Positions 1,831 to 51,063 of a stretch of DNA of 53,052 nt are shown piece after piece. The notes beneath the pieces were generated by a model that worked only from the letters and a program-made list of their open reading frames with translations, did not search any database and was not told the DNA's origin. The first letter of the stretch is position 1; each line of letters starts with the position of its first letter. Where the stretch lies: contig JAIXQU010000079.1 in the NCBI GenBank assembly GCA_027485575.1, positions 1 to 53,052 of the forward strand, written 5' to 3'. The DNA is from Cytophagaceae bacterium. GTDB lineage: Bacteria > Bacteroidota > Bacteroidia > Cytophagales > Flexibacteraceae. The position numbers and the translations under genes are program-made.

Positions 1831-2012
1831 GATAAAAATTGAAAAGGCAATAAATTATTTATTAACTGGATTTCCTAAAAATGTCGACTGGCAAATTCTT
1901 CCATTCTCCATTGAAAATTCATGAAATAAGGGAAAATAAAATAATTAACTTTTTTTTAAAGCTTTTGCATCCTTTTCTCCGAATTGAGAGTTATCCATTT
2001 TTAGAGATATTT

Positions 2013-2939: not shown

Positions 2940-2987
2940 TCATTATAAACCATTCATTCTTATGTAATTAAGAATATTGCTTATCGA

Positions 2988-5008: not shown

Positions 5009-5022
5009 TTTCCGGATAAACA

Positions 5023-5040
5023 GGGGCCACTAAAAAATAC
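5023..5040. repeat. Solo relic of a MITE terminal repeat
   Basis: GGGGCCACTAAAAAATAC matches the left terminus of the MITE-like element at 50812 (GGGGCCACTGAAAAAGTAC) with one substitution and one missing base. It sits in the 55-bp gap between two convergent genes, with no second inverted end visible nearby, so it looks like a solo or eroded end. Confidence 0.4.
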
Positions 5041-5063
5041 ATTAACGCCTTTTGCTCAAGAGT

Positions 5064-36834: not shown

Positions 36835-37041
36835 TTAATCCCATGTTGTCTTCTTATTTTTCAGAATACGCATGCGTTCCTTGTCTTCAGGTGTTTGAAA
36901 CGCATGGAGGAAACGTGCATATTCTTCAATCCATTCCAGAATTTCTTCCGGGGTTTTCTTTTGGTGCTCCCGGATTTGCTCCATGGTAACGTGGTACCTG
37001 AAACCAACATTTTCGTTTTCTTTTTTGGGTGCCTGACTCAT
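36835..37041 (-). CDS. Small protein paired with nucleotidyltransferase-like gene
   Basis: 68 residues, not a named family: MSQAPKKENENVGFRYHVT, then MEQIREHQKKTPEEILEWIEEYARFLHAF and a basic end RMRILKNKKTTWD. The middle is one long amphipathic helix ('P-E-E-I-L-E-W-I-E-E'), of the type seen in small antitoxin-like or accessory proteins that accompany nucleotidyltransferase genes in this phylum. Its ATG overlaps the stop of the upstream nucleotidyltransferase-like gene in a 4-base ATGA (37038-37041), so the two are made together and probably bind each other. A toxin-antitoxin or regulatory role is inference. Confidence 0.6.
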   Translation of the reverse strand: MSQAPKKENENVGFRYHVTMEQIREHQKKTPEEILEWIEEYARFLHAFQTPEDKERMRILKNKKTTWD

Positions 37042-37532
37042 AGAAACTTTTCAGGAAAAATCTTTTTGAGTGAGGCAATATCCAAAATATCCTGCTCTCT
37101 GTTTGAATAGGTTTTTAAGGCAATCAGGTCTTCAACTGAAACCAGTAATACTTCGGTGATTTTTGTTTTCCGGATTTGTTTCCTTTGCCAAAGTTCATTA
37201 AAACTGAATGGCATATCCATTAAAATATCCAAGGTAACAAACTGATAAATAGTACTATAAAAAGAAAATGCAATCAGGTTTCTTTCCTGAACCATCATTT
37301 TTCTTTTGTTTTCATCTGCAAATTCCAGCAATGAAACCGGCAATGCATTCTGATAACCAAAGGTAGAAATGGCTTTTAAAAATAAAGCAATGTTATCTTC
37401 GGTCAATTCAAGGATTATATCCATGTCTGCTGTCGATCTTGGCACTCCATACATATTGATGGCCAGACCACCACAAAGTAAATATCGAACTTTGTGGTCC
37501 TGAAGAGACTTATATAATTCAATAAGGTGCAT
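37038..37532 (-). CDS. Nucleotidyltransferase-fold protein (MNT/AbiEii-like)
   Basis: 164-residue protein with the minimal nucleotidyltransferase signature: CGGLAINMYGVPRSTADMDI, where Gly21-Gly22 form the GS/GG loop and Asp36 and Asp38 the metal-binding pair. A third acidic strand (FVTLDILMDMPF, about 100-111) completes the usual triad. The C-terminal part VSVEDLIALKTYSNREQDILDIA is the 'L-I-A-x-K-x-x-x-x-R-x-x-D-x-x-D' region typical of AbiEii/DUF6036-like proteins. Such enzymes nucleotidylate proteins or tRNA, and several act as toxins or defence components. Upstream of and overlapping a 68-residue partner. No transcription terminator was seen between this pair and the surface-protein gene. 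Confidence 0.75.
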   Translation of the reverse strand: MHLIELYKSLQDHKVRYLLCGGLAINMYGVPRSTADMDIILELTEDNIALFLKAISTFGYQNALPVSLLEFADENKRKMMVQERNLIAFSFYSTIYQFVTLDILMDMPFSFNELWQRKQIRKTKITEVLLVSVEDLIALKTYSNREQDILDIASLKKIFPEKFL

Positions 37533-37772: not shown

Positions 37773-40700
37773 TTACCTCTTCACCACCTTTACCACTTTG
37801 TTAAAGTTATTTCCTTCAATCCGGAAGAAGTACGTGGCAGAAGGCATGCGGCTGAGTTCAACCTGCGTTTCGTTCATCTGGATTTCGGTACGTAGAATTT
37901 CGCGACCCAACATATCGGTAACACGTAGATGACTGCCCTCCAATCCTGCAGTGCGCACATGGAAGATGTCTTTGCCCGGGTTTGGATAAACCAACACACT
38001 GGCTTCTTCTGTTGGCTCCTCTCCTAAGCGACAAGCAGCGAGTGCAACGGCATAGGTTCTGGCCGTGGCATTGGTTCCGCAGGCATTCACTGATTTTACG
38101 CTGACAGATCCAGCAATTGTTCCCCATTTAACTATAATGGAACTTGTGCCCGTTCCTGCTGTGATGCTGGCTCCGGTTGGAACTGTCCATGCATAAGAAG
38201 TGGCGCCCGTTACCGCAGGTGTACTGAAAATTAATCCAGATGCGGATGGACAAACTGAAGCTGGTCCGGTAATGGATGCTGGTGTTGCCGGTGCGCCGAG
38301 TAAGGCTAAAGTGCGGGAAACACTTGCCCCACAGGCATTGTTGGCCACAACGGACAAAGTTCCACTCACAAATCCTGCTGGTACAACAAGGCTCACCGAA
38401 GTTCCGGTGCTTGAGCCAGAGAAGCTGCATCCTGCTGGGGCTGTCCACGTGTAGGATGTGGCACCGGTTACGGCCGCAATGCTGTAAGTGAAAGAGCCAC
38501 CGGCACAAAGATTGGTTGTTGTGCCGGTGATGGTTCCGGGTTGGGCTGTCGTGGATGCAATGCTAAGAGATTTAGCGGTCGAAGATCCGCAGACGGAGTT
38601 TGCCGTTACGCTTACAGTGCCCGAAGCAAAGGTAGCCGGGAAAGTAACCGAAACGGAGTTTGTCCCCTGACCACTGTTGATCACGGCTCCGGCTGGAACA
38701 GCCCAGGTATAGGATGTGGCATTGGCCATGGCCGTACAGGAATAGGTCTGAGTACTGCTGGCACAAACTGCGGCAGCCGGACCGGTAATGGTGGTTGGGG
38801 TTGACGGAATCTTGCTGAGAGCCAAAGTTTTGGCAGCGCCAGTTCCGCAGGCATTGACGGCAGCCACAGAAACGGAACCTGTCGTAAAGCTGGCTGGATT
38901 CACTGCCACAGTAATGGTGTTGGTGCTGGACGTTCCGGTCAGGCCTGATGGAAGTACCCATGCATAACCGGTAGCGCCCGTAACCGCAGTGGCAGTGTAG
39001 GTGGCACTTGTAAGTCCGCATATGGAAGCCGGACCGCTGAGCGTGGTAACAGCCGCCAGTACTTTGGTAAGCGCCAGTGTTTTGGCTCCCGAACTTGCGC
39101 AGCTGTTAACGGCCTGCACGCTCACACTTCCGCTGGTGTAAAGCGATGGATTCACCGCTACTGTAATGCTGTTGGTGGTGGAAGTACCGGTTAAGCCAGC
39201 TGGCAATACCCAGTTGTAAGATGTGGCGCCGGTCATGGCCGTGCAGGTGTAGGTGGCAGTTGTTAATCCACAAATCTGTGCCGGACCGGTAATGGTAGTT
39301 GGTGTGAATGGCGCCTTGCTCAATGTGAGAGATTTGGCTGCAGATGAACCACAGGCATTGTTGGCTTTCGCTGTAATGCTGCCGGATACGAATACCGAAT
39401 TGTCGATGCTCACGGTAATCACATTGGTGGTGGAAGTTCCGGTAATGCCGGCAGGAAGGGTCCAGGTGTAGGAACTCACATTACTGCCGGTGGCGGCGGT
39501 ATATGTCGCCGTTGTGAGACCGCAGGTTATCGTTGGACCGGAAATACTGGAAGGTACAAAAGGCACCTTGCTTACCGAAAGCGATTTAGCCCCGGAGATG
39601 CCGCAGATATTGCCGGCTTTTACAGTAATGCTGCCGCTGGTGAACACGCTGTTGTTAATGCTGGTGTTGATGCTGTTGGTGGCAGATGTTCCGCTGTATC
39701 CGGTTGGAAGTGTCCAGCTGTAATAGGTTGCACCGATGGAGGTAGAAGAAGTGTAAGAACCGGTAGTAATGCCGCAGGTTACGGTTGGGCTGCCGGTAAG
39801 CGAGGACGGTGTCGCCGGAACCTTCGCAATAGTGAGTGATTTGGCAGCCGAGGTGCAAAACGCCGTGTTGGCTTTTACCGTAACCGCACCGCTGGTAAAG
39901 GCAAGATCGTTAATGGCCACCGCAATGCTGTTGGTCGTAGAAGTTCCGGTTAATCCGGAAGGCAGCGTCCAGCTGTAGGAAACAGCGCCCGTTACGGTCG
40001 AGGCCGTATAAGTTCCAGAAGTGAGGGTACAAATCATGGTTGGACCGGTAAGGGTGCTTGGCGTTGCCGGGATGGCATTCAGGGTAACCACCGAGGATGA
40101 AGAAGTTGTGGCACAACCGGCGGCCGAGGTAACCGTTACCGAGTAAGAACCGGCGGCACTTGCGGTATAAGAATTGGATGTTGCACCGGTAATGGCCGTG
40201 CCGTTGTTCCTCCACACATAGGTCTGGCCGGAAACTGCCGGGGTGCTGAGTGTAACCGAACCACCCGTACAAATGTTAAGCGTGCCGGAGGCGGAAACCG
40301 TGGCCGAAGGTGGTGTATTTACAGTTACTACGGTTGAGGGAGATGTGGCAGAACAGTTGCCAGCTTTGGTAACCGTTACAGAGTAAGAACCAGCCGTTGA
40401 CGCAGTGTAGCTTGCTGATGTGGCGCCTGAAATGGCAGCACCGTTTAATCTCCATACATAGGTTAAGCCGGTACCTGTATTGGCATTCAGAACAACCGAA
40501 CCTCCTGTGCAGAAACTGGTAGAAGTTGCTGCCGTGATGTTAGCTGTTGGAGGTGTATTAACCGTTACAACCGTTGCCAAAGAAGTTGCAGAACAGGCAC
40601 TTGCATTGGTAACCGTTACCGAATAAGACCCAGCTGCGCTGGCCGTATAACTCGCTGAAGTAGCGCCGGTAATGGCAGTACCGTTTAACCTCCAGACATA

Positions 40701-41255
40701 GGTTAAGCCGGTACCCGTATTGGCATTGAGCACAACAGAACCTCCGGTACAGAAACTGGTGGAAGTAGCGGGTGTGATGGTGGCCGTTGGTGCAGCGTTG
40801 GCTGTAAGGATTCTGGAAACAGAGACGCTACAACCCGATCCATTGCTGATGGTGCAGGTATAAGTACCAGCTACGGTCAGATTTGGAATGGCGGCTGTAC
40901 TTGCTGTAAAGCCATTTGGGCCTGTCCAGCTGTAGGTGGTGGTAGCTAAAATTCCGCTGGCGGCTGTGGCAGTGAAAGAGGTATTTCCTCCGGTGCAGAT
41001 GGCATTGGTGCCGGTGACGGAAGGGGTAACCGGTGCGGTGCAGGCCACCACGGCAGGCTGCTGAAAACCTTGCGTGAGCATGGCATTTCCGTTGACCAGG
41101 GTTTGGGTGAATGTTTCGCCGAGTGTCCAGGAAACCTGAAGGCTGGCGCCCGAATAATTGCCACCAGCCGAGGCTATGACCGAAGGCTTAAGGCTTTGCG
41201 CCTGCAGCAAACCAATTGCTGAAAAGGCAAAAAGAAAGAGGAAGAACTTTTTCAT
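37773..41255 (-). CDS. Giant T9SS-secreted surface protein with Ig-like and PKD-like repeats
   Basis: 1160 residues. Signal peptide 1-19 (MKKFFLFLFAFSAIGLLQA). Residues 20-70 are the common module SVIASAGGNYSG...SWTLGETFTQTL...LTQGFQQP found in T9SS cargo. About 71-400 hold four Ig-like domains with the repeated core ICTGGSV...YVWRLNGTAITGATS...GSYSVTVT; about 400-1080 hold eight PKD-like repeats of roughly 82 residues (ITGPA-x-ICGLTTATYT...WTLPAGLTGTSTTN...NACGSSAAKSL). The last 75 residues are a type A sorting domain (VLVYPNPGKDIFHV...GREILRTEI...TYFFRIEGNNFNKVVKVVKR), so the protein is exported by T9SS and anchored at the surface. No enzymatic domain is visible; adhesion or matrix function is inferred. 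The gene is clearly more GC-rich than the housekeeping part of the window, and long open frames on the other strand here are shadows of its repeats. Confidence 0.92.
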   Translation of the reverse strand: MKKFFLFLFAFSAIGLLQAQSLKPSVIASAGGNYSGASLQVSWTLGETFTQTLVNGNAMLTQGFQQPAVVACTAPVTPSVTGTNAICTGGNTSFTATAASGILATTTYSWTGPNGFTASTAAIPNLTVAGTYTCTISNGSGCSVSVSRILTANAAPTATITPATSTSFCTGGSVVLNANTGTGLTYVWRLNGTAITGATSASYTASAAGSYSVTVTNASACSATSLATVVTVNTPPTANITAATSTSFCTGGSVVLNANTGTGLTYVWRLNGAAISGATSASYTASTAGSYSVTVTKAGNCSATSPSTVVTVNTPPSATVSASGTLNICTGGSVTLSTPAVSGQTYVWRNNGTAITGATSNSYTASAAGSYSVTVTSAAGCATTSSSSVVTLNAIPATPSTLTGPTMICTLTSGTYTASTVTGAVSYSWTLPSGLTGTSTTNSIAVAINDLAFTSGAVTVKANTAFCTSAAKSLTIAKVPATPSSLTGSPTVTCGITTGSYTSSTSIGATYYSWTLPTGYSGTSATNSINTSINNSVFTSGSITVKAGNICGISGAKSLSVSKVPFVPSSISGPTITCGLTTATYTAATGSNVSSYTWTLPAGITGTSTTNVITVSIDNSVFVSGSITAKANNACGSSAAKSLTLSKAPFTPTTITGPAQICGLTTATYTCTAMTGATSYNWVLPAGLTGTSTTNSITVAVNPSLYTSGSVSVQAVNSCASSGAKTLALTKVLAAVTTLSGPASICGLTSATYTATAVTGATGYAWVLPSGLTGTSSTNTITVAVNPASFTTGSVSVAAVNACGTGAAKTLALSKIPSTPTTITGPAAAVCASSTQTYSCTAMANATSYTWAVPAGAVINSGQGTNSVSVTFPATFASGTVSVTANSVCGSSTAKSLSIASTTAQPGTITGTTTNLCAGGSFTYSIAAVTGATSYTWTAPAGCSFSGSSTGTSVSLVVPAGFVSGTLSVVANNACGASVSRTLALLGAPATPASITGPASVCPSASGLIFSTPAVTGATSYAWTVPTGASITAGTGTSSIIVKWGTIAGSVSVKSVNACGTNATARTYAVALAACRLGEEPTEEASVLVYPNPGKDIFHVRTAGLEGSHLRVTDMLGREILRTEIQMNETQVELSRMPSATYFFRIEGNNFNKVVKVVKR
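38006..40055 (-). repeat. Eight tandem PKD-like coding repeats (about 245 bp each)
   Basis: In-frame tandem repeats inside the surface-protein gene, with units starting at the codons for 'T-P-x-x-(I/L)-(T/S)-G-P'. The central five units are the most alike, the outer ones drift, which fits expansion by unequal recombination. This also makes the locus prone to assembly collapse, so the repeat count should be treated with care. Confidence 0.8.
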
Positions 41256-41302: not shown

Positions 41303-42433
41303 TTAGTCTTTTAGGCAGCGGACGGAGAAGCCGCTCTTTTTGAGATTTGCTCCTCTATTAGAACCAGCTGAGTCATAATAAAGCGATCTTAACCAGGAAT
41401 CTGTTGAAGAAAATGAAGTAGAAGACCACCAATAACCATTTGAACCGAGGATTGTGTAAACCCCCTGATCATTCCGATTTCCACCAGGAATTGCTCCAAA
41501 TCCACTCAAATTAGTTGCGCCCGTATTAGGGCTTAACCAAGCAGTTGATACAGCTTTTAACTGCCCTCCTGCATTAATGCCACGAGTTCCTATTGAAGTA
41601 GGATTAGAAATCGATGGTTCAAGATATTTTTCAAGCGTAAACCATTCCGGATCCGACGGCACATGCCATCCTGTTGGACATAATCCTCTTAAATCAGAGA
41701 CAGAAAACCAATTATATAACTTCCCATAAATTACATTATTGGCCTGATCATTATTATAAACTGAATAAGCTCCGCTTGCTGTGCTGCTCCACTGAATATC
41801 GGTTAAGCCTGTTGGAATAGGATTACTATTCCTGTATTTACTAACCTTCAAATTCTCTGCCATCCAAACTTGTGTTCCAATGCGAACAGTTTGATAGACA
41901 TTTCCATCGATGTCGGTTACAGGTGCTTCGGGTTGGTTCAAAATCGGATTTGCTGCCGATAAGCCAGGAATAATCAGGTAATTCCCATTACCAGTAAACA
42001 GTGTATCCCCAATAGCGCTGGTTTTCATTTTAATACCATTCGCCTGCAACGCATACGGCACACTCATCATCTGGGTAGTTCCCAAATCGGTATAGGTTGT
42101 ACCACCCGCCGGATCCATTTCTACCTGCAAAAACTTGGCATTCTTGCCCCAGTTGATGCCGGAGAAGGTTCCACTTACCACCGTGCCCATGCCCACATTG
42201 ACCGAAAACAAACCCAGCGCCGAGGTGGTTGGGTTGTGGGTTTCCTGGTATTTGATGGCGCCGGTGGCGATGCTGTCCCGGATGGAGAAACGCACCTTCA
42301 CAGGCGTGCTGGCAATGGCCTGTCCGCTTGCATTTCGGGCGATGGCCTGGTAGGGGATGCCTTGAGGGGCTTGGGCGAAAAGTAAAAAGGAAGAAGTAAA
42401 AAGTAAAAAGGAGAAGAGAAAGAGCTTTTTCAT
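41303..42433 (-). CDS. Secreted N-module + FISUMP protein (array copy 1)
   Basis: 376 residues from ATG 42433, chosen because it gives a signal peptide (MKKLFLFSFLLFTSSFLLFA|QAPQG); the frame stays open upstream into the tail of the preceding gene without a signal. Residues about 21-135 are the array's constant module. A short linker with GDTLFTGNGNYLIIPG follows, then a FISUMP domain (about 175-376): DIDGNVYQTVRIGTQVWMAE, NLKVSKYRN, YGKLYNWFSVSDLRGLCP, GWHVPSDPEW, GYWWSSTSFS and the closing GFSVRCLKD. FISUMP domains are thought to have a C-type-lectin-like fold and to sit at the cell surface; ligand unknown. No T9SS sorting domain is present. It is 47 bp upstream of the giant surface-protein gene. 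Confidence 0.85.
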   Translation of the reverse strand: MKKLFLFSFLLFTSSFLLFAQAPQGIPYQAIARNASGQAIASTPVKVRFSIRDSIATGAIKYQETHNPTTSALGLFSVNVGMGTVVSGTFSGINWGKNAKFLQVEMDPAGGTTYTDLGTTQMMSVPYALQANGIKMKTSAIGDTLFTGNGNYLIIPGLSAANPILNQPEAPVTDIDGNVYQTVRIGTQVWMAENLKVSKYRNSNPIPTGLTDIQWSSTASGAYSVYNNDQANNVIYGKLYNWFSVSDLRGLCPTGWHVPSDPEWFTLEKYLEPSISNPTSIGTRGINAGGQLKAVSTAWLSPNTGATNLSGFGAIPGGNRNDQGVYTILGSNGYWWSSTSFSSTDSWLRSLYYDSAGSNRGANLKKSGFSVRCLKD

Positions 42434-42482
42434 TTTGTAGAAAGGTAAAGTAATGTGGTATTTTTTTAAGATTGATGAAGGA

Positions 42483-43604
42483 TTAGTCTTTGAGGCAGCG
42501 GACGGAGAAGCCTCCTTTATTGGAGAATCCATTACGGTTTGAAGCTGCGTTGGCAGTATGACTGAAATGAAACCATCCCAAGTTTGAAGAATACGGTGAT
42601 GAAGTCCACCAATAACTTCCAGAATTAAGGTCGAAATAGGAAGATGTTTCGGCTCTGGCACCTCCGGGAAGACCTGAAAAACCTAGGCTATTCGAAGCAC
42701 CTGAATTAGGAGAAGCCCATAAAGAAGTTAGGCTTTTCAGTTTACCGCCAGCAACAAGATAGCCCCCCAAATAATCTTCCAGGCTTGACCATTCCGGATC
42801 TGTAGGAACATGCCATCCAGCTGGGCAGAGACCCCGTGAATCTGAAACCGCATACCAATTGTACAGCTTACCGAAGGTGGAATTATTGGTTGCATTGTTG
42901 CCGTAAATGGCATAAGCACCAATCGTAGCATTTTGCCATTCTAAATCAGTAAAGTTCGTCGTTATGGCGGTACCGTTTCGATATTTGCTTACTTTCAAAT
43001 TCTCCGCCATCCAGGTTTGATTGCCTATTGTGATAGTTTTATAGCTATTTCCTTCCACATCGCTTATCGTGCTATAAGTTAAATTTGGATTGAATACACC
43101 TAAATTTAAGATGGAAACTCCGGGAATAATTAAATAATTTCCACCACCAGTGTAAAGGGTATCACCAGTTGCGCTGGTTTTCATTTTAATCCCATTCGCC
43201 TGCAACGCATACGGCACACTCATCATCTGCGTCGTGCCCAAATCGGTGTAAGTGGTACCTCCAGTGGTGTTCAGTTCCACCTGCAGAAACTTGGCATTTT
43301 TACCCCAGTTGATGCCGGAGAAAGTGCCGCTTACCGCTGTGCCCATGCCCACATTTACCGAGAACAACCCGAGCACCGAGGTGGTGGGGTTGTGGGTTTC
43401 CTGGTATTTGATGGCGCCAGTGGCGATGCTGTCCCGAATGGAGAAACGTACTTTTACTGCGGTATTAGAAATGGCCACTCCGCTGGCATTTCGTGCGATG
43501 GCCTGGTAAGGGATGCCTTGGGGAGCTTGGGCAATGCAAGTAGTTGGTGCAAAGTAGTTAGTAATTAGTGTGATGGCTAAAGCGCTGAGGATATGATTTT
43601 TCAT
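42483..43604 (-). CDS. Secreted N-module + FISUMP protein (array copy 2)
   Basis: 373 residues from ATG 43604 (signal MKNHILSALAITLITNYFA, then TTCIAQAPQG). An upstream in-frame start at 43682 lies inside the previous gene and was rejected. Constant module about 27-142, the linker GDTLYTGGGNYLIIPG shared with copies 1 and 5, and a FISUMP domain with DVEGNSYKTITIGNQTWMAE, LYNWYAVSDSRGLCPAGW, SLEDYLGG, FSGLPGGARAE, YWWTSSPYSS and GFSVRCLKD. The cassette is similar to that of copy 1 in framework but differs strongly in the strand/loop residues between GYWW/SYWW and the end (FHFSHTANAASNRNGFSNK here versus LRSLYYDSAGSNRGANLKK), the part that forms the binding face in C-type-lectin-like folds. Confidence 0.85.
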   Translation of the reverse strand: MKNHILSALAITLITNYFAPTTCIAQAPQGIPYQAIARNASGVAISNTAVKVRFSIRDSIATGAIKYQETHNPTTSVLGLFSVNVGMGTAVSGTFSGINWGKNAKFLQVELNTTGGTTYTDLGTTQMMSVPYALQANGIKMKTSATGDTLYTGGGNYLIIPGVSILNLGVFNPNLTYSTISDVEGNSYKTITIGNQTWMAENLKVSKYRNGTAITTNFTDLEWQNATIGAYAIYGNNATNNSTFGKLYNWYAVSDSRGLCPAGWHVPTDPEWSSLEDYLGGYLVAGGKLKSLTSLWASPNSGASNSLGFSGLPGGARAETSSYFDLNSGSYWWTSSPYSSNLGWFHFSHTANAASNRNGFSNKGGFSVRCLKD

Positions 43605-43621
43605 TAGTGAAATTTGAAATA

Positions 43622-44428
43622 TTATCGGACACAAATTGCTGGAAGACTGGATGGGGCTTGGCCTCCCGGATGGGTAATCCATGCAGCACTATTTAATGTA
43701 GTAAAGGTTGAAGCACCAACTCCATTGCCAAAACCTAATACTTGTTGTTCTGAGGATTTTGTCCAATAATCAAATGACAACTTTAAACCAACGATATCTC
43801 TCAAATATTCAACTTCTTGAATTGAAGGAATCCTCCAATCTGAATAACCACTTTCAACTAGGTTGAAACAATAATTAACAGCTTCAGTGTAGAAAAAAGT
43901 GGCTCCTTGCGAAGGCTGACTGTAAATGGAGGGTTTAGTATAATAATTACTTTCTGAAGCACCTGCAACAGTATTTCCAGCATACAGAGCATACGGCACA
44001 CTCATCATCTGCGTTGTTCCCAAATCAGTGAAGGTCGTGCCTCCCGTGGTATTCAATTCCACCTGCAAAAACTTAGCATTTTTACCCCAGTTGATGCCGG
44101 AAAAGGTGCCGCTTACCACCGTACCCATACCCACATTCACCGAGAACAAACCTAGGGCCGATGTGGTTGGGTTGTGGGTTTCCTGGTATTTGATGGCGCC
44201 GATGGCGATGCTGTCCCGGATCGAGAAGCGCACCATCACAGGCGTGCTGGCAATGGCTACGCCGCTTGCGTTGCGGGCGATGGCCTGGTAGGGGATGCCT
44301 TGTGGGGCCTGGGCTTTTATAAAGAAGTCAAAAGTAAGAAGTTGAGTGGCGCAAAGCGCTACGAAATGGCGACGAAAGCGCCAGCAAAAGAAAAACAGGA
44401 GTGATTGCCTGGGTATTTGATTTTTCAT
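43622..44428 (-). CDS. Secreted N-module + DUF1566/Lcl-like protein (array copy 3)
   Basis: 268 residues. The constant module (about 39-155) is joined to a shorter C-terminal cassette with the DUF1566/Lcl pattern: AVNYCFNLVESGYSDWRIPS, IQEVEYL, FDYWTKSSEQ and the final Cys-Val-Arg (ICVR). DUF1566 is also C-type-lectin-like and is found on surface and phage-receptor proteins. The signal sequence is odd: from ATG 44428 it reads MKNQIPRQSLLFFFCWRFRRHF before the usual hydrophobic LLTFDFFIKA|QAPQG, so the core is broken by five charged or polar residues encoded by a GC-rich stretch (GGCGC...GCGCC, 44347-44381). Export may be impaired or start elsewhere. It ends 17 bp before copy 2 begins. Confidence 0.8.
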   Translation of the reverse strand: MKNQIPRQSLLFFFCWRFRRHFVALCATQLLTFDFFIKAQAPQGIPYQAIARNASGVAIASTPVMVRFSIRDSIAIGAIKYQETHNPTTSALGLFSVNVGMGTVVSGTFSGINWGKNAKFLQVELNTTGGTTFTDLGTTQMMSVPYALYAGNTVAGASESNYYTKPSIYSQPSQGATFFYTEAVNYCFNLVESGYSDWRIPSIQEVEYLRDIVGLKLSFDYWTKSSEQQVLGFGNGVGASTFTTLNSAAWITHPGGQAPSSLPAICVR

Positions 44429-44459
44429 GAGAACAATATCGGATTATCTTATACTTTAA

Positions 44460-44567
44460 TTAATTTTCTTGTAATGGTAAATTGGCTTTGGCCATAGCAG
44501 GGGATACTTCTGCAACTCTTAAGGACACGTGAGCATATGAACCGGGACGGGGGATGTTGATTTTCAT
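44460..44567 (-). CDS. Possible 35-residue small ORF downstream of the PIN pair
   Basis: Open from ATG 44567 to TAA 44460: MKINIPRPGSYAHVSLRVAE then VSPAMAKANLPLQEN. Protein-like in composition but not recognised and without a clear ribosome-binding site. It lies in the 205-bp gap between the antitoxin-like gene and array copy 3 and may be a remnant of the segment that came with the PIN pair. The rest of the gap shows nothing. Confidence 0.22.
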   Translation of the reverse strand: MKINIPRPGSYAHVSLRVAEVSPAMAKANLPLQEN

Positions 44568-44633
44568 GTAGTAGTGTGGTTTTATGCGGTAAAATTATAC
44601 ATTATGCTTTCATAAAAATAGTTCCTTTCTGTT

Positions 44634-44804
44634 CTAGTGTGCATTTTTGTCTGCAGCTTCCAATCTTCGCTTTTTAAAATAAGCAATCAGCTCTTCAAAA
44701 CTCATGTCCTGAATATCTATTGAAATTCTGTCCCGAACCTCACGCATGTATTTCACTGCCCGGAAACCTTCCGGTACAGCATCCTGTTTTTTATTGGTCA
44801 TCAT
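44634..44804 (-). CDS. Small antitoxin-like protein partner of the PIN toxin
   Basis: 56 residues (MMTNKKQDAVPEGFRAVKYM, then REVRDRISIDIQDMSFEELI and a basic tail AYFKKRRLEAADKNAH). This matches by eye the small 'x-D-A-V-x-x-M-R-E-I-R-D-x-I-S-x-x-I-x-D-M-S-x-E-E' proteins that sit next to PIN-domain genes in bacteria and are presumed antitoxins. Start ATG 44804 or 44801; it overlaps the 3' end of the PIN gene by 14 bp, so the two are co-translated. Unusually for vapBC-like pairs the toxin gene comes first. No DNA-binding motif is evident, so it may act only by binding the PIN protein. Confidence 0.65.
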   Translation of the reverse strand: MMTNKKQDAVPEGFRAVKYMREVRDRISIDIQDMSFEELIAYFKKRRLEAADKNAH

Positions 44805-45264
44805 AGTTGATAAGTTCTTTTGGCGATCTTATATCAAGGGTCTTATATCCAAACTTCAAATTAACCATATTGTATCCTCGGATCCGAAAAATATTCACGA
44901 TGTGTTTGAAGTTCCAGCTTACCAGCACATCTGCATGATGCAGGGTGGCCAGCGCAATGTGCAGACAATCTTCCCGGCTGGTTTTTCCAACAACTTTTTC
45001 AGCAATGTAGGCATCCGCAAGAAGGACAGCCTCCCTGCTTAATTCAACCCTGATTTTAAGGTTATCGGGGATTTGGCCAAGAAGCTCTTGGACTTGCTGC
45101 GGGGCATTAAGCAGCTCATCTTCTGTTACCGATGAATACATGACCACAAAATTCGAATGGTGAAGGTTATCGAGCAGCAACCTCGTCTCAGTCAGAAATT
45201 CCTGATCGAAATATCCACCAATTACAGAAGTATCAATGTAAAGAGTTGTTTTCTTTATTTCCAT
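44791..45264 (-). CDS. PIN-domain ribonuclease toxin (VapC-like)
   Basis: 157-residue PIN-domain protein, expected to be a Mg-dependent RNase of the VapC type. Acidic site residues are visible in order: Asp11 in LYIDTSVIGGYFD, Glu50 in VTEDELLNAP, Asp99 in TSREDCLHIALAT, and VSWNFKHIVN (115-124), in which Asn118 replaces the fourth Asp as is usual for this subgroup. It is co-encoded with a 56-residue antitoxin-like protein. The start ATG 45264 lies 15 bp after the stop of a truncated array copy, so the module occupies the spot where that copy lost its 3' part. Codon composition is plainer and more AT-rich than that of the flanking N-modules. Confidence 0.88.
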   Translation of the reverse strand: MEIKKTTLYIDTSVIGGYFDQEFLTETRLLLDNLHHSNFVVMYSSVTEDELLNAPQQVQELLGQIPDNLKIRVELSREAVLLADAYIAEKVVGKTSREDCLHIALATLHHADVLVSWNFKHIVNIFRIRGYNMVNLKFGYKTLDIRSPKELINYDDQ

Positions 45265-45278
45265 GCTATTGAACCGAA

Positions 45279-45530
45279 CTATTTGTCAGGTGAAATACAA
45301 TAAAGACGCGAGGCATCCAGCGCCGAGGTGGTTGGGTTGTGGGTTTCCTGATATTTCACCGGCCCGGTGGCAATGCTGTCCCGGATAGAGAAGCGCACTT
45401 TTACTGCGGTATTAGAGATTGCCACACCGCTGGCATTCCGGGCAATGGCCTGGTAGGGGATGCCTTGGGGAGCCTGGGCCGAAGATGCAGCCGAGGCGAG
45501 GTAAAATAGAAGGTAGAATATCTTTTTCAT
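45279..45530 (-). pseudogene. Truncated array copy 4 (signal peptide plus half of the N-module)
   Basis: Starts normally (ATG 45530, MKKIFYLLFYLASAASSAQAPQG) and follows the constant module exactly up to YQETHNPTTSAL, then diverges at once to DASRLYCISPDK and a stop. In the intact copies this point continues GLFSVNVGMG. The break is therefore at about 45319 inside the module, and DNA to its left is unrelated, leading within 55 bp into the PIN/antitoxin pair. No matching 3' half is found nearby, so this is a deletion or insertion-deletion, not a simple insertion. The 83-residue product could still be made and exported but is unlikely to fold. Confidence 0.85.
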
Positions 45531-45574
45531 TTGGTTGATTTTGTAGATTCTTTGTTAATTAATAATTTGGGGGA

Positions 45575-46651
45575 TTAGTCTTTTAGGCAGCGGACTGAGT
45601 AGCCAAATTGTTTATTGTCGCCACTTATATGATTAAAATTGCTATCAAAAGAACTTGTGTATCCATAATAGGCATTGTTATCGAAATACCACCAATATCC
45701 ATAATCACCCTCAAGATTAGCAGCTCCAACATCGTTTAGATAACCTCCAGGTAAACCAGAGAAACCACTTTCATTAGAGGCTCCGGCATTTGGGCTTTTC
45801 CATAAAGCAGAGACTAATCTCATTTTACCTCCAGCAATCGAAGTACCTCCAAGATAGGAGGTCAAAACAATCCATTCATTTTTACTAGGAACATGCCATC
45901 CGTTAGGACATAACCCTCTAGAATCTTTTACTGCATACCAATTATATAATTTGCCATAAGTGACATTATTTCCGTTGTAATTATTATAAACTCCAAATGC
46001 GCCTGAGGTAGTGCTCTGCCAAACACCTCCCGAAAGACCAGTTGGGACATTATCGCCATTCTTATATTTTGAAACTTTCAAATTCTCTTTCATCCAAACC
46101 TGGTTTCCGATTCGGACGGTTTGATATACATTTCCATCTATATCTGTAACGGGCAATTCATATTGTTGATTGGAAGCAGAAATTCCCGGAATTATCAGAA
46201 AATTCCCTCCACCGGAATAAAGGGTATCACCACTAAAGCTTGTTATAAATTTAATTGCATTCGCATGCAATGCATAAGGTACACTCATCATCTGCGTTGT
46301 ACCCAAATTGGTATAAGCTGTGCCTCCCGCCGGATCCAGTTCCACCTGCAAAAACTTGGCATTTTTACCCCAGTTGATGCCGGAGAACGTACCGCTTACA
46401 ATTGTGCCCAAGCCCACATTGACCGAAAACAAACCCAGCGTCGAGGTGGTCGGGTTGTGGGTTTCCTGATATTTTATGGCGCCTGTGGCGATGCTATCAC
46501 GGATGGAGAAACGCACTTTTACCGCCGTGCTGGCAATGGCCTGTCCACTGGCATTTCGGGCGACGGCCTGGTACGGAATGCCTTGCGGCGCTTGCGCAAG
46601 AAGTAAAAAGTCAGAAGTTAGAAGCAGGCAAAAAGTGTATAGGGTTTTCAT
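45575..46651 (-). CDS. Secreted N-module + FISUMP protein (array copy 5)
   Basis: 358 residues, start ATG 46651 with signal MKTLYTFCLLLTSDFLLLA. Constant module about 20-134 (small changes: QAVARNASG, STLGLFSVNVGLG), linker GDTLYSGGGNFLIIPG, then a FISUMP domain from about 165: DIDGNVYQTVRIGNQVWMKE, NLKVSKYKNGDNVPT, LYNWYAVKDSRGLCPNGW, VLTSYLGGTSIAGGKMRL, FSGLPGGYLNDVG, YGYWWYFDNN and the end GYSVRCLKD. The framework is again that of copies 1 and 2, while the segment after YGYWW (YYGYTSSFDSNFNHISGDN) is different. It lies 2 bp downstream of the stand-alone W-K-I domain gene at 46654, so it may be the last gene of a local transcript. Confidence 0.87.
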   Translation of the reverse strand: MKTLYTFCLLLTSDFLLLAQAPQGIPYQAVARNASGQAIASTAVKVRFSIRDSIATGAIKYQETHNPTTSTLGLFSVNVGLGTIVSGTFSGINWGKNAKFLQVELDPAGGTAYTNLGTTQMMSVPYALHANAIKFITSFSGDTLYSGGGNFLIIPGISASNQQYELPVTDIDGNVYQTVRIGNQVWMKENLKVSKYKNGDNVPTGLSGGVWQSTTSGAFGVYNNYNGNNVTYGKLYNWYAVKDSRGLCPNGWHVPSKNEWIVLTSYLGGTSIAGGKMRLVSALWKSPNAGASNESGFSGLPGGYLNDVGAANLEGDYGYWWYFDNNAYYGYTSSFDSNFNHISGDNKQFGYSVRCLKD

Positions 46652-46653
46652 AG

Positions 46654-47052
46654 TTAGGGGATGATATTGTATTCGATGACATTCAAGGAAATTATTGCTC
46701 CTGTAACTGGATTGGGCACATAAGCTTTCAACTGGTAATCACCAGATGAAAGCCAGTATGGAAGATTTGTTATACTTTCCATTCCACTACCAACTGATTT
46801 TAATGCTGAATTGCCAAGGAGAATCGAGAAAATTCCAAACTCACCAGAGGATCCGTTTGAAATAAAGCTTGCTGCCTCAATTTTCCAGATTTTCCCAACC
46901 GGAACAATTAATGATTTAACCACATTTGGACCGTTGGTAATTGTTGCTGGAGCAGATTCCAATGTGAATACCCGATTAAATTGTAAATTTCCCTGCGCCC
47001 GCAAGCCAATTGAAATTAGTAAAAAAGGAATGATAAGGAGTAGCTTTTTCAT
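46654..47052 (-). CDS. Small secreted protein with stand-alone 'VPVGKxWKI' domain (a)
   Basis: 132 residues from ATG 47052 (signal MKKLLLIIPFLLISIGLRA); an in-frame start 12 codons upstream would lie inside the previous gene. The mature part starts QGNLQFNRVFTLES and contains VVKSLIVPVGKIWKIEAASF, ILLGNSALKSVGSG, LPYWLSSGDYQLKAY and the ending VIEYNIIP. It is a paralogue of the next gene (47049-47444), sharing QGNLQFN, V-P-V-G-K-x-W-K-I-E, W-L-x-S-G-D and Y-N-I-I-P. It resembles the C-terminal cassette of copy 7 in this array. The ATG overlaps the upstream stop in ATGA. Function unknown; a compact beta-sandwich is likely. Confidence 0.72.
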   Translation of the reverse strand: MKKLLLIIPFLLISIGLRAQGNLQFNRVFTLESAPATITNGPNVVKSLIVPVGKIWKIEAASFISNGSSGEFGIFSILLGNSALKSVGSGMESITNLPYWLSSGDYQLKAYVPNPVTGAIISLNVIEYNIIP

Positions 47053-47444
47053 GGGATGATGTTGTATTCGATTATCGATATGAGCCATGTGCCATCTAAA
47101 CGATAAGTGGATTGTGAAGCGTAATAATAGCCATAATTCTGGTAGGCAATAGTATCACCTGATTTTAGCCAAATGGGGCTTGAATCTGCATCAATTTCCA
47201 TTGGAGTTCCATTAATTACTGGTGCCAAATAAGGGTATCCTGTACCATTCCTAAACTTAGATTTAGTCAGATATTCAATTTTCCAAACCTTTCCTACTGG
47301 TACTGTATAGGTTGTTGAAAACTCAGGGCTTCCTATTATGAATTCTCCTTTAAATGTCAAAACCTGATTAAACTGCAAATTTCCTTGCCCAAATCCCTCA
47401 AATCCAATGAGTAGAAAGGCTATAATACAGACATATTTTTTCAT
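47049..47444 (-). CDS. Small secreted protein with stand-alone 'VPVGKxWKI' domain (b)
   Basis: 131 residues, signal peptide MKKYVCIIAFLLIGFEGFG, mature start QGNLQFNQVLTFKG. Contains TYTVPVGKVWKIEYLTKSKF, LAPVINGTPMEID, SSPIWLKSGDTIAYQ and ends LISIIEYNIIP. Paralogue of the gene at 46654-47052 and related to the C-terminal part of array copy 7. It starts 2 bp after the stop of array copy 6, which consists of little more than the constant module; copy 6 plus these two genes therefore look like the domains of a single fusion protein encoded separately. No known family name comes to mind. Confidence 0.72.
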   Translation of the reverse strand: MKKYVCIIAFLLIGFEGFGQGNLQFNQVLTFKGEFIIGSPEFSTTYTVPVGKVWKIEYLTKSKFRNGTGYPYLAPVINGTPMEIDADSSPIWLKSGDTIAYQNYGYYYASQSTYRLDGTWLISIIEYNIIP

Positions 47445-47446
47445 TT

Positions 47447-47911
47447 TTAAAATCCGGTGGAAAGGTATAATAGACTGGTAAGATTCTTTATTGTGCTTTC
47501 TCCAACAACCGGGTCAACGCTTCCAGCCCGGATTGCGTAGGGAACCGATAACATTTGCTGTGTGCCCAGGTCAACGTAGTTGGCTCCTCCGGCGGCATCC
47601 ATTTCCACCTGCAGAAACTTGGCATTTTTGCCCCAGTTGATGCCGGAGAAGGTACCGCTTACCACCATGCCCATACCCACATTTACCGAAAACAAACCCA
47701 GCGCCGAGGTGGTCGGGTTGTGGGTTTCCTGGTAACGCACCGGCCCGTTGGCTATGCTGTCCCGGATGGAGAAGCGCACTTTCACTGCCGTGTTGGCAAT
47801 GGCTACCCCGCTGGCATTCCGGGCGATGGCCTGATAAGGGATGCCCTGGGGGGCTTGGGCGAAAACTGCAGCCGAAACGAGGCATAAAAGGAGTAAGAGT
47901 ATCTTTTCCAT
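47447..47911 (-). CDS. Secreted N-module-only protein (array copy 6)
   Basis: 154 residues: signal peptide MEKILLLLLCLVSAAVFA, the complete constant module (QAPQGIPYQAIARNASG to LSVPYAIRAG, about 19-134), and only about 20 further residues (SVDPVVGESTIKNLTSLLYL). It thus lacks any C-terminal cassette. Small differences from the consensus (ANGPVRYQE, DAAGGANYVDLGTQQMLS) make it one of the more divergent heads. Two base pairs separate it from the next gene, a stand-alone W-K-I-domain protein, so head and cassette may be supplied as separate chains. Whether the short tail is original or the result of a lost cassette cannot be told. Confidence 0.8.
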   Translation of the reverse strand: MEKILLLLLCLVSAAVFAQAPQGIPYQAIARNASGVAIANTAVKVRFSIRDSIANGPVRYQETHNPTTSALGLFSVNVGMGMVVSGTFSGINWGKNAKFLQVEMDAAGGANYVDLGTQQMLSVPYAIRAGSVDPVVGESTIKNLTSLLYLSTGF

Positions 47912-47994
47912 ATTGATGATTAAAGTTCTGAGTTGATTTATTGTTGAATGGATTTTGGGTATTAGTCTTTTAGGCAGAAATCAGAGATATTCTT

Positions 47995-48867
47995 TTATCG
48001 GTATTTTTCAACATAAACTAAAAATAATCTTCCAATAGAAATCAATTCACCCCCATTTGCCCATAATGGCAATTGAAGACTTGAATATCCACTAGAAATG
48101 TAACCCGGCCAAGGTTTTACAATATAAGGCGGACATTCACTACAATTAGTGGCGGACTGACTGTAACCAGGCGAAATCTTTTCAGAATACTGTACTTGAC
48201 CGATTTTTATACTAAATAAATACGAATTTGCTTCATACAAACAGTTTGCCGAAGTTGAAGAAATAGTATTACATCCCGTTTTATTAATTCTAAATTCAGT
48301 AGAGTTAACTTCTTTTGGAACAGTAATGGAAACAATCTTCCAAGTTTCATTTGCTGGAACTGCATAGCTTCCTTCAGGCAATTTAGTAACTCCCACTAAT
48401 GTCAAAACCGAATCAGCAGAGGGAGTGTAACTTGGATTTATTTGACTAGAACTCCCTGCGACGCCCGCATACATCGCATACGGCACACTCATCATCTGCG
48501 TGGTTCCCAAATCAGTATAAGTAGTTCCTCCTGTTGTATTCAATTCCACCTGCAGAAACTTGCCGTTCTTGCCCCAGTTGATGCCAGAGAACGTTCCGCT
48601 TAACACCGTTCCCATACCCACATTTACCGAAAACAAACCCAAGGCCGAGGTCGTGGCATTATGGGTTTCCTGGTATTTGATGGCGCCTGTTACGATGCTG
48701 TCCCGGATGGAGAAGCGCACGTTTACCGCCGTGCTGGCAATGACTACGCCGCTTGCGTTACGGGCAATGGCCTGGTAGGGGATGCCTTGGGGGGCCTGGG
48801 CGAGAAGTAAAAAGTCAAAACTTAGAAGGCAAAATAAAATAAATGTTTTGAGGAAATTAGTAATCAT
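47995..48867 (-). CDS. Secreted N-module + 'VPxxxxWKI' cassette protein (array copy 7)
   Basis: 290 residues, signal MITNFLKTFILFCLLSFDFLLLA. Constant module about 24-138, then linker MYAGVAGSSSQINPSYTPSA and a cassette of about 130 residues: VLTLVGVTKLPEGSYAVPA, NETWKIVSITVPKE, a Cys-containing loop (NKTGCNTISSTSANCLYEAN), YSQSATNCSECPPYIVKPW and LQLPLWANGGELISIGRLFLVYVEKYR. The segment V-P-A-N-E-T-W-K-I-V corresponds to V-P-V-G-K-x-W-K-I-E of the stand-alone genes at 46654 and 47049, and L-P-L-W-A-N-G-G to W-L-x-S-G-D. So this is the fused form of what those genes encode alone. Four cysteines in the loop may make disulphides. 84 bp separate it from copy 6. Confidence 0.8.
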   Translation of the reverse strand: MITNFLKTFILFCLLSFDFLLLAQAPQGIPYQAIARNASGVVIASTAVNVRFSIRDSIVTGAIKYQETHNATTSALGLFSVNVGMGTVLSGTFSGINWGKNGKFLQVELNTTGGTTYTDLGTTQMMSVPYAMYAGVAGSSSQINPSYTPSADSVLTLVGVTKLPEGSYAVPANETWKIVSITVPKEVNSTEFRINKTGCNTISSTSANCLYEANSYLFSIKIGQVQYSEKISPGYSQSATNCSECPPYIVKPWPGYISSGYSSLQLPLWANGGELISIGRLFLVYVEKYR

Positions 48868-48915
48868 ACCATTAAGTATCTATTGTAAAAAATATTCTCA
48901 TAAAAAAATTGAAAT

Positions 48916-49665
48916 TTATCTTACACATTTGATCTGATTATTCCCTCCTGAGGACGATCCGTTTGTAATTCCGTCATTAATCATCCACCATTGGTTAGAA
49001 TAGCCAACTTGTGTAAGTGTGAAGCCATAGTAACGTGGACTACCATCAGCTAACGTAGTACCATTAAGTGTAAAATCTGTTTTTATCTCTTCAAGAGTGG
49101 GCAACCTCCAGTCACTGTACCCACCCTCAACTAGATTATAACAATAATCAATTGACTCTTTTAAATTATAATATGATAAGGTCTGATTTACAATTTTTGG
49201 TGGAGAAAAGTTTGAAATCATTGTAAACCCATTGCCTAGATTATTTCCAGCAAGTGAAGTTGCGGCCTGCCCGGCAAACAATGCATACGGCACACTCATC
49301 ATCTGCGTAGTACCCAAATCGGTATAAGTTGTGCCACCTGTTGTATTCAATTCCACCTGCAAAAACTTGGCATTCTTACCCCAATTGATGCCGGAGAACG
49401 TACCACTTACCACCGTGCCCATGCCCACATTCACCGAAAACAAACCCAGCGCCGACGTGGTGGCACTATGGGTTTCCTGGTATTTGATGGCGCCGGTGGC
49501 GATGCTGTCCCGGATGGAGAAACGTACTTTTACCGCTGTGTTGGCTATGGCTACCCCGCTGGCATTCCGGGCGATGGCCTGATAAGGAATGCCTTGGGGG
49601 GCCTGGGCGAAAAGTAAAAAGTCAAAAGTTAGAAGACAAAAGGCAAATAGGAAGATTTTTTTCAT
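48916..49665 (-). CDS. Secreted N-module + DUF1566/Lcl-like protein (array copy 8, first of the array)
   Basis: 249 residues, signal MKKIFLFAFCLLTFDFLLFA. Constant module about 21-135 (HSATTSALGLFSVN instead of HNPTTSAL), then a DUF1566/Lcl-like cassette related to that of copy 3: ESIDYCYNLVEGGYSDWRLPTLEEI, an aromatic core YYGFTLTQVGYSNQWWMI, and the final Lys-Cys-Val-Arg. It is the first gene in transcriptional order, and the region to its right (49666 on) has no gene for 1.8 kb, so the array's main promoter should lie just upstream; I found no convincing TAnnTTTG element, only a 10-bp palindrome CTCTGCAGAG near 49692. Confidence 0.83.
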   Translation of the reverse strand: MKKIFLFAFCLLTFDFLLFAQAPQGIPYQAIARNASGVAIANTAVKVRFSIRDSIATGAIKYQETHSATTSALGLFSVNVGMGTVVSGTFSGINWGKNAKFLQVELNTTGGTTYTDLGTTQMMSVPYALFAGQAATSLAGNNLGNGFTMISNFSPPKIVNQTLSYYNLKESIDYCYNLVEGGYSDWRLPTLEEIKTDFTLNGTTLADGSPRYYGFTLTQVGYSNQWWMINDGITNGSSSGGNNQIKCVR

Positions 49666-50160
49666 TGGTTCTTGGTTTTCCCTGCACTGTCCCTCTGCAG
49701 AGTGGGCTTAAAAAAAATCAGTGTAAGACAGTAGTTTGTTTTTGCCCAGGAGGTTGGTATACACAAGAAATGAAATAAACCAATGCCAACACATATTGTG
49801 GGTATCTAAGTTTTTTCTTTTTTGTTTATAAAATTACCAGTTTTAAGAAGCAGGAATAAACTAACGCTGATTATATTATTTCAGACATTAAGAATGTTGT
49901 GGTCTATGTCATTGGTTTTTTTTCGCTGGCAAAAGTAAATTAAATTATGAAAATGCAAACATAAACCCATAAGATTTTATAAATCGTTGAGGTTTATTGC
50001 AATCTAAAGTCAAGGTTAAATCAAATTTTAAAATTAAAAATCAAGAAAGACTTCTTAAACCCGGATTACTCATTTGAAACTTTAAAGCTTCGCAATGCCT
50101 TGATTCCGTTTTTTTTATACCCCAAACCCCGGAGGTGTTTTTTTATTGTGATTCCTGGCA
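49666..50160. other. AT-rich non-coding stretch upstream of the array
   Basis: About 500 bases with no gene. It contains the palindrome CTCTGCAGAG (near 49692) in the leader region of array copy 8 and long A/T runs. A plus-strand frame open from about 50040 to 50201 reads partly like protein but has no start and no family, and overlaps the relic on the other strand; I treat it as chance. No RNA gene was recognised. Confidence 0.5.
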
Positions 50161-50571
50161 TTAAAAACCTATTGGATAATCCGTATGAAAATGTTCAATA
50201 AACATTCTTAAATTTTTTATTAACCAGGTTCCTTTCCCGAAACCGCCATCTGCCGCCAAAGTCACCACTTCGCTGAAGTTTTTGCAGGTGAAAATATGAA
50301 CAATGGCTTGCATTCTGGTATCAGCTTCAGCAAACACATTTAATTGGGTTTTCCGGATTTTAACGCTGAATTGCCGTTAAGAAATACATGGCTGCCAACA
50401 GGCGGTTTTGCCGGGTCTAAACTAAGGCCAGAGAAAAAAGCTGGGGAGGAAATTTTCTATCGGGTCTGACCACCAAGCCAATGGGTTGCCCTGAAATATC
50501 CAGATTTTGACATTCCAGATTTTGTGACCTGCAGCAACATTGTTTTGCTTTGACCCCAGCGGGGTAAAAAA
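50161..50571 (-). pseudogene. Decayed relic of a W-K-I-domain secreted protein gene
   Basis: Minus-strand DNA with protein-like text broken by frameshifts and stops. Segment 50425-50571 reads KQNNVAAGHKIWNVKIWIF, resembling V-P-V-G-K-I-W-K-I-E of the array's small proteins; then, in another frame, SGLSLDPAKPPVGSHVFLNG and NSALKSGKPN before a stop (compare LLGNSALKSVGSG in the gene at 46654); finally, back in the first frame, 50164-50376 is open for 71 codons (LNVFAEADTRMQAIVHIFT, SEVVTLAADGGFGKGTW). The similarity is short and judged by eye. If correct, this is a dead ninth member at the edge of the array. A hairpin ACCCC-AGC-GGGGT lies at 50553-50565. Confidence 0.32.
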
Positions 50572-50811
50572 TCAATAGCTCGAAGAAATACCATAAAAAG
50601 CTTCAGAGAAGCGATATGATTTATTTACCAACTAAAATATCTAACACCCCATTTACAAACCCTTTGTTCATTTTGTTTTCGCTGTTTAAAGGGAGGCAAC
50701 GCCATTCACGCTGAATGAAATGCCTGACCAGGTTCATATTCTGGTTGGAATCAAACCCGACAAATACTGGTCTGGTTCGGGATTTAACATCACAGGCATC
50801 ATAATTAATTA

Positions 50812-51063
50812 GGGGCCACTGAAAAAGTACAACATGGCCCTCAATTGTTCGCCGTAGATTTTTTAAGTGCGCATGTTATTAACTATCAAGCCCATCTCCT
50901 CTGGAGAGGGGTTGGGGTGAGGTTAGGATAGGAAAAGAGAAACGAAAATTTAAAATACAAGTGCAATACTTTTGGCTGTTTCGGTGTAAAATCATGCACT
51001 TGATTATAAAAAAGATCCATATAATATTTAAAATAAGCTACTTGTAACTTTTTCAGCAGGCCC
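50812..51063. mobile_element. 252-bp MITE-like element with terminal inverted repeats
   Basis: Left end GGGGCCACTGAAAAAGTACAA (from 50812) and right end, read inverted, GGGCCTGCTGAAAAAGTTAC (to 51063) are imperfect inverted repeats of about 22 bases. The element is flanked on both sides by TAATTA (50806-50811 and 51064-51069), a likely 6-bp target duplication, although the flanks are also partly palindromic. It has no open frame, so it would depend on a transposase elsewhere. Inside are CAAGTGCA/TGCACTTG (near 50960 and 50993) and the hairpin CCTCT-GG-AGAGG (near 50897). A solo end-like copy occurs at 5023. The insertion-sequence family was not identified. Confidence 0.65.

Follow-up and report, generated by a model that had tools for sequence, protein, structure and literature searches.

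A tandem array of secreted proteins with a constant MAT-N-like head and differing tails in a Cytophagaceae bacterium, and its candidate T9SS-sorted partner

A contig of a Cytophagaceae bacterium (Bacteroidota; assembly GCA_027485575.1, contig JAIXQU010000079.1), analyzed over its whole 53,052 nt and hereafter called the window, carries at 41303-49665 eight neighbouring minus-strand genes in which a common signal peptide (assigned by eye) and a head of ~111 residues (QAPQGIPYQA...SVPYAL) precede tails of different kinds. The locus raises the question of what the constant head does and by which route it came to carry such different ends. An earlier sequence-only reading had regarded the array as a fixed secretion or assembly head joined to exchangeable binding ends. 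We propose that the array encodes secreted display proteins, composed of a signal peptide, a constant head docking on a neighbouring protein sorted by the type IX secretion system (T9SS), and tips exchanged by recombination; we put the probability of this reading at roughly 0.6.

All eight genes were recovered with their signal peptide and nearly invariant module, as first described, and the seven full heads are 81-95% identical to each other in protein and 78-88% in DNA. Three tails are FISUMP (Pfam Fib_succ_major, PF09603), two Lcl_C-like, one is a W-K-I domain and two genes have none. The tail census was correct for the first three classes, although one of the two tailless genes, g5, proved to be a truncated head beside a PIN-domain gene, whereas g3 is a complete head-only gene. 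The W-K-I domain, initially ascribed to a single gene, is present three times in the window, fused to the head in g2 (47995-48867) and separately in h1 and h2. The FISUMP matches pass the gathering score (E 1e-40 to 1e-44, 140-153 bits); those to Lcl_C (PF07603) reach E 2e-5 with 25.4 and 25.1 bits versus a gathering score of 34.9, and we call these two tails Lcl-like, their similarity not establishing membership of Lcl_C. Both family names cover the tail ends only. The order of transcription is g1 to g8, with h1 and h2 between g3 and g4, the PIN gene behind g5 and the T9SS-sorted gene after g8 (Table 1).

The first clue to the role of the head comes from the mosaic adhesive trimer (MAT) proteins of Bdellovibrio. 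The sections of Caulton (2024; PMC10769870) used here describe 21 such proteins, in all of which a conserved beta-rich N-domain of about 130 aa, devoid of clear relatives in the PDB, directly follows the signal peptide. The C-terminal ends have been exchanged between members, the tips including TNF-like and C-type lectin domains (Bd2740), and the C-type lectin tip trimerises like Mtd, a variable protein of a diversity-generating retroelement (DGR) by the title of the reference given there. The surface element bound by the MAT N-domain awaits identification according to the same sections. The profile NF053851 (Bdello_MAT_N) matched all five scanned array head proteins (E 6e-9 to 8e-11) and 59 of 62 Bacteroidota head proteins at E ≤1e-3 (best 1e-16); the 62 are open reading frames (ORFs) uncut by the locus end and of ≤900 aa, selected among the 80 top-ranking of 580 confirmed relatives. 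In genome searches it gave nine matches in the array-bearing genome (3.9 Mb, 198 contigs) and none in 14 control genomes. Since the scores stay below the curated 60-bit cut-off, we regard the array head, as judged by its sequence, as a remote relative of the MAT N-domain rather than a member. The suggestion that the function of such a head appears undescribed is, as worded, not supported in view of this relationship, though in the sections cited the binding partner is open there too.

The array proteins and the MAT proteins have in common a beta-rich, sequence-related N-domain behind the signal peptide, and interchangeable C-terminal tips, as far as the sections used here describe them. Of 158 distinct heads, 156 start no further than 130 residues into the open frame, and the structure model of the head is beta-rich and of high confidence (per-block pLDDT means ≥90 for residues 1-100). 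In contrast to the MATs, the array occurs in Bacteroidota, its heads fall under the curated cut-off, and they are paired with a T9SS-sorted protein; the array proteins, at 249-376 aa for those with tails, are short and show no fibre shaft. MATs form trimeric fibres; the model here was computed for a single chain, and the collagen repeats (23/62) and S74 domains (7/62) that Pfam finds in tails of the 62 head proteins bear on a trimer only indirectly. The same scan gave FISUMP in eight tails and Lcl_C in four. Bdellovibrio is predatory, and no predatory lifestyle has been shown for the host of the array.

The second clue is the gene order around the heads. The system extends past the end of the array, since the next gene (37773-41255) encodes a T9SS-sorted protein of the type paired with heads elsewhere. 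This type is recognized by an 'S.GG...W.LGE...LTQGFQQP' domain, usually combined with a T9SS sorting tail, and is found directly beside many heads. Within head loci 52 of the 59 non-redundant partner ORFs lie ≤200 bp from a head gene, whereas random placement would give 13.1 (sd 2.7), and 58 of the 59 are on the same strand as the head. Among 118 genomes we counted 98 heads and 55 partner domains, of which 39 are situated within 5 kb of a head (~0.5 expected), 38 of these 39 on the same strand and 36 upstream; heads and partners occur together in 29 genomes, heads only in six, partners only in six and neither in 77. A T9SS-tailed neighbour on the same strand at ≤200 bp accompanies 43 of the 92 head genes flanked by 700 bp on either side, versus 1 of 132 other genes of the same loci (p 4e-19). 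The array-bearing genome has three partner domains, all beside a head or head fragment: one in the window, one on contig C61 preceding a DGR target, and one next to a truncated head on C111. It also holds PorP/SprF.

T9SS sorting domains (TIGR04183/PF18962) were detected in the partners, 47 of type A and two of type B in the 52 scanned (63 found), while none of the 62 head proteins has one, and our own profile detected no T9SS signal in any of 169 head ORFs (120 uncut by the locus end). The T9SS-sorted neighbour is thus, by its place in the gene order, a candidate docking partner of the head. Under the proposed reading the head, belonging to a branch of the MAT N-domain superfamily in Bacteroidota, would act as a cell-proximal docking module; it most likely docks on the neighbouring T9SS-sorted protein (37773-41255 in this window), and docking would bring proteins devoid of a T9SS signal of their own to the surface, where the tips (FISUMP, Lcl-like and W-K-I, in relatives FGE, S74 and ends on collagen repeats) would do the binding.

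The alternative that the head is a folding or trimerisation module without specific partner, the T9SS pairing reflecting co-regulation of surface genes, seems unlikely to us. Collagen repeats and S74 domains are both trimeric, and heads often precede them; over half of the head genes lack an adjacent T9SS gene; and MAT fibres are trimers in the published account (PMC10769870, in the sections used). Yet heads precede tips both with and without such shafts, and the pairing is specific, as it involves mostly one T9SS-sorted protein, on the same strand and upstream in 36 of 39 cases, a specificity also visible in the three partner domains of the array-bearing genome.

As to the route by which tails were acquired, the window itself preserves a trace of replacement. 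The FISUMP 3′ end (CGCTGCCTAAAAGACTAAT), searched as a 19-mer with ≤2 mismatches, has four sites in the 3.9 Mb genome, namely the FISUMP stops of g4, g7 and g8 and the gap behind the W-K-I gene g2; a fifth site, on C67, has three mismatches, and the reversed pattern used as control matched once. The chance expectation for the 17-mer of this remnant is 0.02 in the window. The remnant behind g2 is the fossil of a FISUMP tail which was replaced by W-K-I.

The whole-genome search for further heads, anticipated by the sequence-only reading, was productive. A composite head query gave 12 matches: the seven full array heads (86-95% identical to it), the truncated g5 head (89% over 55 aa), an intermediate head on C61 (52%) and distant ones on C187, C51 and C126 (28-31%), near-identical heads being confined to the array contig. 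From the upstream region through signal peptide and head to where the collagen part begins, C187, C51 and C126 share 87-89% DNA identity, and their heads are 97-100% alike in protein, but the ends differ, being FGE-type in C187 and FISUMP in C51 and C126. Over 736 nt the FGE ends of C187 and C61 are in turn 85.5% identical, yet the C61 head is array-like (49-54% to array heads, 34% to the C187 head in protein). Therefore one head is joined to different tails and one tail to different heads within this genome. Tails under 50 residues being excluded, no protein match at E 1e-3 was found for 11 of 15 tail pairs in the window and 11 of 34 elsewhere, which is 22 of 49 in 26 fetched loci with at least two heads, so that some arrays are plain duplications and others mosaic. 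FISUMP also occurs without such a head, as 7 of the 12 above-cut-off FISUMP loci of this genome have no head at E 1e-3. These results bear out the notion of a fixed head with exchangeable ends. New tips would enter by recombination at the head/tail border, for which the shared heads and the shared FISUMP 3′ ends may provide the homology.

Several results weigh against the proposed reading. The heads of this genome score under the NF053851 cut-off (36-42 bits in the protein scan, 18-34 in the genome search), and comparison of the head model with the PDB gave nothing at E ≤1e-3, the best Z being 6.9 among tied generic rows. T9SS-tailed neighbours at ≤200 bp are missing for 49 of the 92 head genes, six of which are array genes sharing one partner, and the partner profile alone finds a neighbour for 34 of the 92. 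The partner and T9SS profiles were built mostly from head-adjacent genes and favour such genes; one T9SS-tailed neighbour (L176) was, on the other side, missed by the partner profile. In loci L088 and L090 the partner-domain proteins behind head-only units lack the T9SS tail, which is present in L089. With respect to exchange, recombination inside the heads was not significant in the pairwise homoplasy index (PHI) test (p 0.69-0.80 for all nine heads and 0.10-0.16 for the seven own ones, with the same outcome at third positions). The tails are saturated at synonymous sites, and the exchanges may therefore be old.

The latter findings also bear on another rival, an old family of tandem duplicates that exchanged nothing, with tails that diverged or disappeared and heads held alike by selection, which we consider rather improbable. 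It agrees with the negative PHI test and with the low non-synonymous difference (pN) of the heads, which at 0.01-0.12 indicates strong selection. The FISUMP and Lcl tails of the array are homologous within each class, and the two heads of a sister species (G001), identical to array heads at about the same level, are not set apart and form no cluster of their own by identity, so the duplications probably predate the species split. Against this rival stand the tails from unrelated families (11 of 15 window pairs), the fossil FISUMP end behind the W-K-I gene and the cross-combination of heads and tails at 85-89% DNA identity on other contigs. Heads and tails have had separate histories: the synonymous difference (pS) is 0.38-0.53 for heads, which are not saturated, and 0.67-0.78 for tails (nine FISUMP or Lcl pairs drawn from the own genes and the two genes of G001).

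Three further indications were not accepted as proof of exchange. The GC content at third codon positions is 60-71% in the array heads and 23-38% in their tails (window background 38.8, sd 2.5, n=22 genes), but heads on other contigs of the genome are also high (50-58%), which leaves it only suggestive of gene conversion. Our own triplet test gave a best p of 5e-5, the resampling floor, among 504 ordered triplets, ~0.025 after Bonferroni correction, which is weak. The comparison with the sister species placed its heads in the range of the array and revealed no clear-cut exchange of a cassette: gene x2 of that species carries a signal peptide like that of g7, but the tail, cut by the contig end, is saturated versus g4, g7 and g8 alike (pS 0.71, 0.78 and 0.74).

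The sequence-only reading had also linked such ends to DGRs, and this proved correct for the genome and not for the array. The genome holds a real DGR. Its one RVT_1 match, on C111, has an HRDC-domain gene before it and behind it a template repeat (C111:1785-1921) that reads like an FGE-type end. The genome contains four matches to the template, one being the template and the others variable repeats (VRs; on C61, on C187 and at the contig edge of C111). Of 94 aligned template A positions 53 are changed, versus 3 of 230 for the other bases. Both readable targets (C61 and C187) are proteins with heads of this superfamily, their VRs lying in FGE-type ends; the C187 target is cut by the contig edge inside the VR, and of the third VR only the end is present, C111 beginning inside it. 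Similar reverse transcriptases (RTs; E ≤1e-40) were found in 4 of the 118 genomes including this one, and in none of four other genomes of the genus. The RT, the template repeat and the A-specific C-terminal VRs of secreted proteins in the same genome resemble the DGRs described in the part of Roux (2021; PMC8144416) used here, the difference being that the targets are on other contigs and the array tails are no targets of the template. A piece of FISUMP sequence behind the RT (C111:1987-2136), which scores 24 bits and contains two stops, was discarded as template in favour of the FGE-like one, and an FGE gene at the end of C115, beside PorP/SprF, was rejected as a third head-bearing target, having only ~70 residues before the FGE part.

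That the array tails themselves are diversified by this DGR, as a retroelement-driven display reservoir, would suit its presence and the same-superfamily heads of its readable targets, but none of the four template matches is on the array contig, which largely refutes the idea for this template, and the FISUMP, Lcl-like and W-K-I tails differ from the FGE-type ends that carry the VRs; we hold it to be very improbable. Equally improbable is a polymorphic-toxin-like cassette array of a constant export head and variable effector ends with orphan ends behind: the layout resembles the constant core with variable and orphan ends of Rhs and CdiA, and headless W-K-I genes and a PIN gene do lie between heads, but no toxin family scored above cut-off in the Pfam scan of the eight array proteins, the PIN gene follows a broken head, and the W-K-I proteins are unlike orphan ends because they have signal peptides of their own and belong to a unit that recurs in three other genomes.

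This unit offers a variant of the display architecture. In L088, L089 and L090, from three different metagenome-assembled genomes, a head-only gene precedes one to three genes for secreted W-K-I proteins (of the GNLQFN...EYNIIP type), behind which comes a partner-domain protein. The head-only proteins of these genomes end in NTMLYLSDGF, NTLLYTTNGF and NTLIYLSDGF (pattern NT-L/M-L/I-Y-L/T-S/T-D/N-GF). In the array g3 (TSLLYLSTGF), h1 and h2 repeat this layout, while g2 is a fused form, and because both fused and split forms occur the arrangement suggests that head and W-K-I work as partners. W-K-I is rare, being found in 2 of the 118 genomes including this one (E 1e-3, query h2). Its model has no Foldseek match at E ≤1e-3, and an assignment as C1q/TNF-like was dropped as too weak, the C1q/TNF rows (Z 5.4-6.1) being listed among other jelly rolls of up to 6.8. 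The partner-domain protein of L090 (6677-8677) ends like a FISUMP protein.

Taken further, and only as a tentative generalization, these observations could point to a two-piece display system of Bacteroidota in which a T9SS-sorted socket anchors plug proteins through a MAT-N-like head, the tips being recombined, supplied in trans (head-only plus W-K-I) or in some cases rewritten by a DGR. If this is true, the surface element bound by MAT heads gets a testable counterpart in Bacteroidota, where gene order names a specific candidate, the T9SS-sorted protein, and reduces the problem to a two-protein question. It could also explain how secreted Bacteroidota proteins lacking a T9SS signal arrive at the surface, and it links a retroelement that rewrites binding surfaces with these modular heads. 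The underlying principle has been described in Bdellovibrio, whereas the Bacteroidota form, the T9SS pairing, the in-trans W-K-I unit and the use of the head by DGR targets are new as far as searched. No published account of this combination was found in the open-access literature, the supplementary lists of other bacteria in the MAT paper not being covered; the mosaic adhesive papers found there were all on Bdellovibrio, and nothing was found for DGR with collagen and Bacteroidota, for tail fiber with sorting domain, or for FISUMP.

Table 1 Features of the array and its candidate partner in the window, in order of transcription
Feature	Coordinates	Strand	Basis
g1: signal peptide + head + Lcl_C-like tail	48916..49665	-	ORF, Pfam, head search, NF053851
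g2: signal peptide + head + W-K-I tail	47995..48867	-	ORF, head search
Fossil FISUMP 3′ end (CTGCCTAAAAGACTAAT) behind g2 stop, mark of tail replacement	47961..47979	-	19-mer search
g3: complete head-only gene, C-terminus TSLLYLSTGF	47447..47911	-	first gene of head-only + W-K-I unit
h1: standalone secreted W-K-I protein, predicted all-beta, jelly-roll-like	47049..47444	-	ORF, structure model
h2: standalone secreted W-K-I protein, likely start 47052	46654..47088	-	ORF
g4: signal peptide + head + linker + FISUMP	45575..46651	-	ORF, Pfam
g5: head cut after TSAL (~residue 71 of protein), then 12 unrelated residues	45279..45530	-	ORF, head search
PIN-domain gene at g5 break	44791..45264	-	Pfam PIN E 9e-4, below gathering score
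55-codon ORF overlapping PIN gene end, candidate antitoxin by position only	44634..44801	-	read from ORF list
g6: signal peptide + head + Lcl_C-like tail	43622..44428	-	ORF, Pfam
g7: signal peptide + head + linker + FISUMP	42483..43604	-	Pfam
g8: signal peptide + head + linker + FISUMP	41303..42433	-	Pfam
Candidate anchor/partner, 1160 aa: N-domain (41046-41207) with motif 'ASAGG..SWTLGE..LTQGFQQP', PKD/Ig-like repeats, T9SS sorting domain of type A	37773..41255	-	
Full head modules	42041-42373 (g8), 43197-43529, 43979-44311, 46262-46594, 47525-47857, 48469-48798, 49276-49605	-	head search
Partial head module	45312-45476	-	head search

The sequence-only reading took FISUMP and Lcl-type tails for C-type lectin-like, a fold not confirmed by the g8 structure model, the FISUMP part of which is of low confidence (pLDDT about 30-50). 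Just downstream of the partner gene lies a nucleotidyltransferase gene of the DUF6036/AbiEii kind (37038-37532), and upstream of g1, at 50000-51000, short pieces resemble a decayed transposase (EMPDQVHILVGIKPDKYWSGSG), presumably of IS200 type.

PIN cassettes stand at broken heads twice in this genome, at g5 and on C111, the DGR contig, where a PIN/DUF2281 gene pair and a T9SS partner gene are found next to a second truncated head (locus L027; 4927-5139, 5239-5517, 5514-5717 and 5760-6221, minus strand). Similar Fic-domain proteins are encoded on two head-bearing contigs, L072 of the sister species (4871-5647) and C111 (L027 4059-4841), ~3 kb from the head in one species and beside the head fragment in the other.

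Among other loci, L079 and L118 are four-head tandem arrays without a partner-domain gene, though a T9SS-tailed gene adjoins one head in L079 and two heads in L118; the L079 tails are mutually homologous, with an S74-like motif recognized by regular expression only, and four of six tail pairs of L118 have no match. In L090 a head-like domain is placed near the C-terminus of a 1386-aa open frame (757-4914), versus its usual N-terminal place. Three IMG/VR contigs labeled 'viral' (L175, L176 and L177) carry heads at 39-40% identity, and a T9SS-tailed gene lies directly upstream of the head in L176 and L177, which suggests bacterial or prophage DNA.

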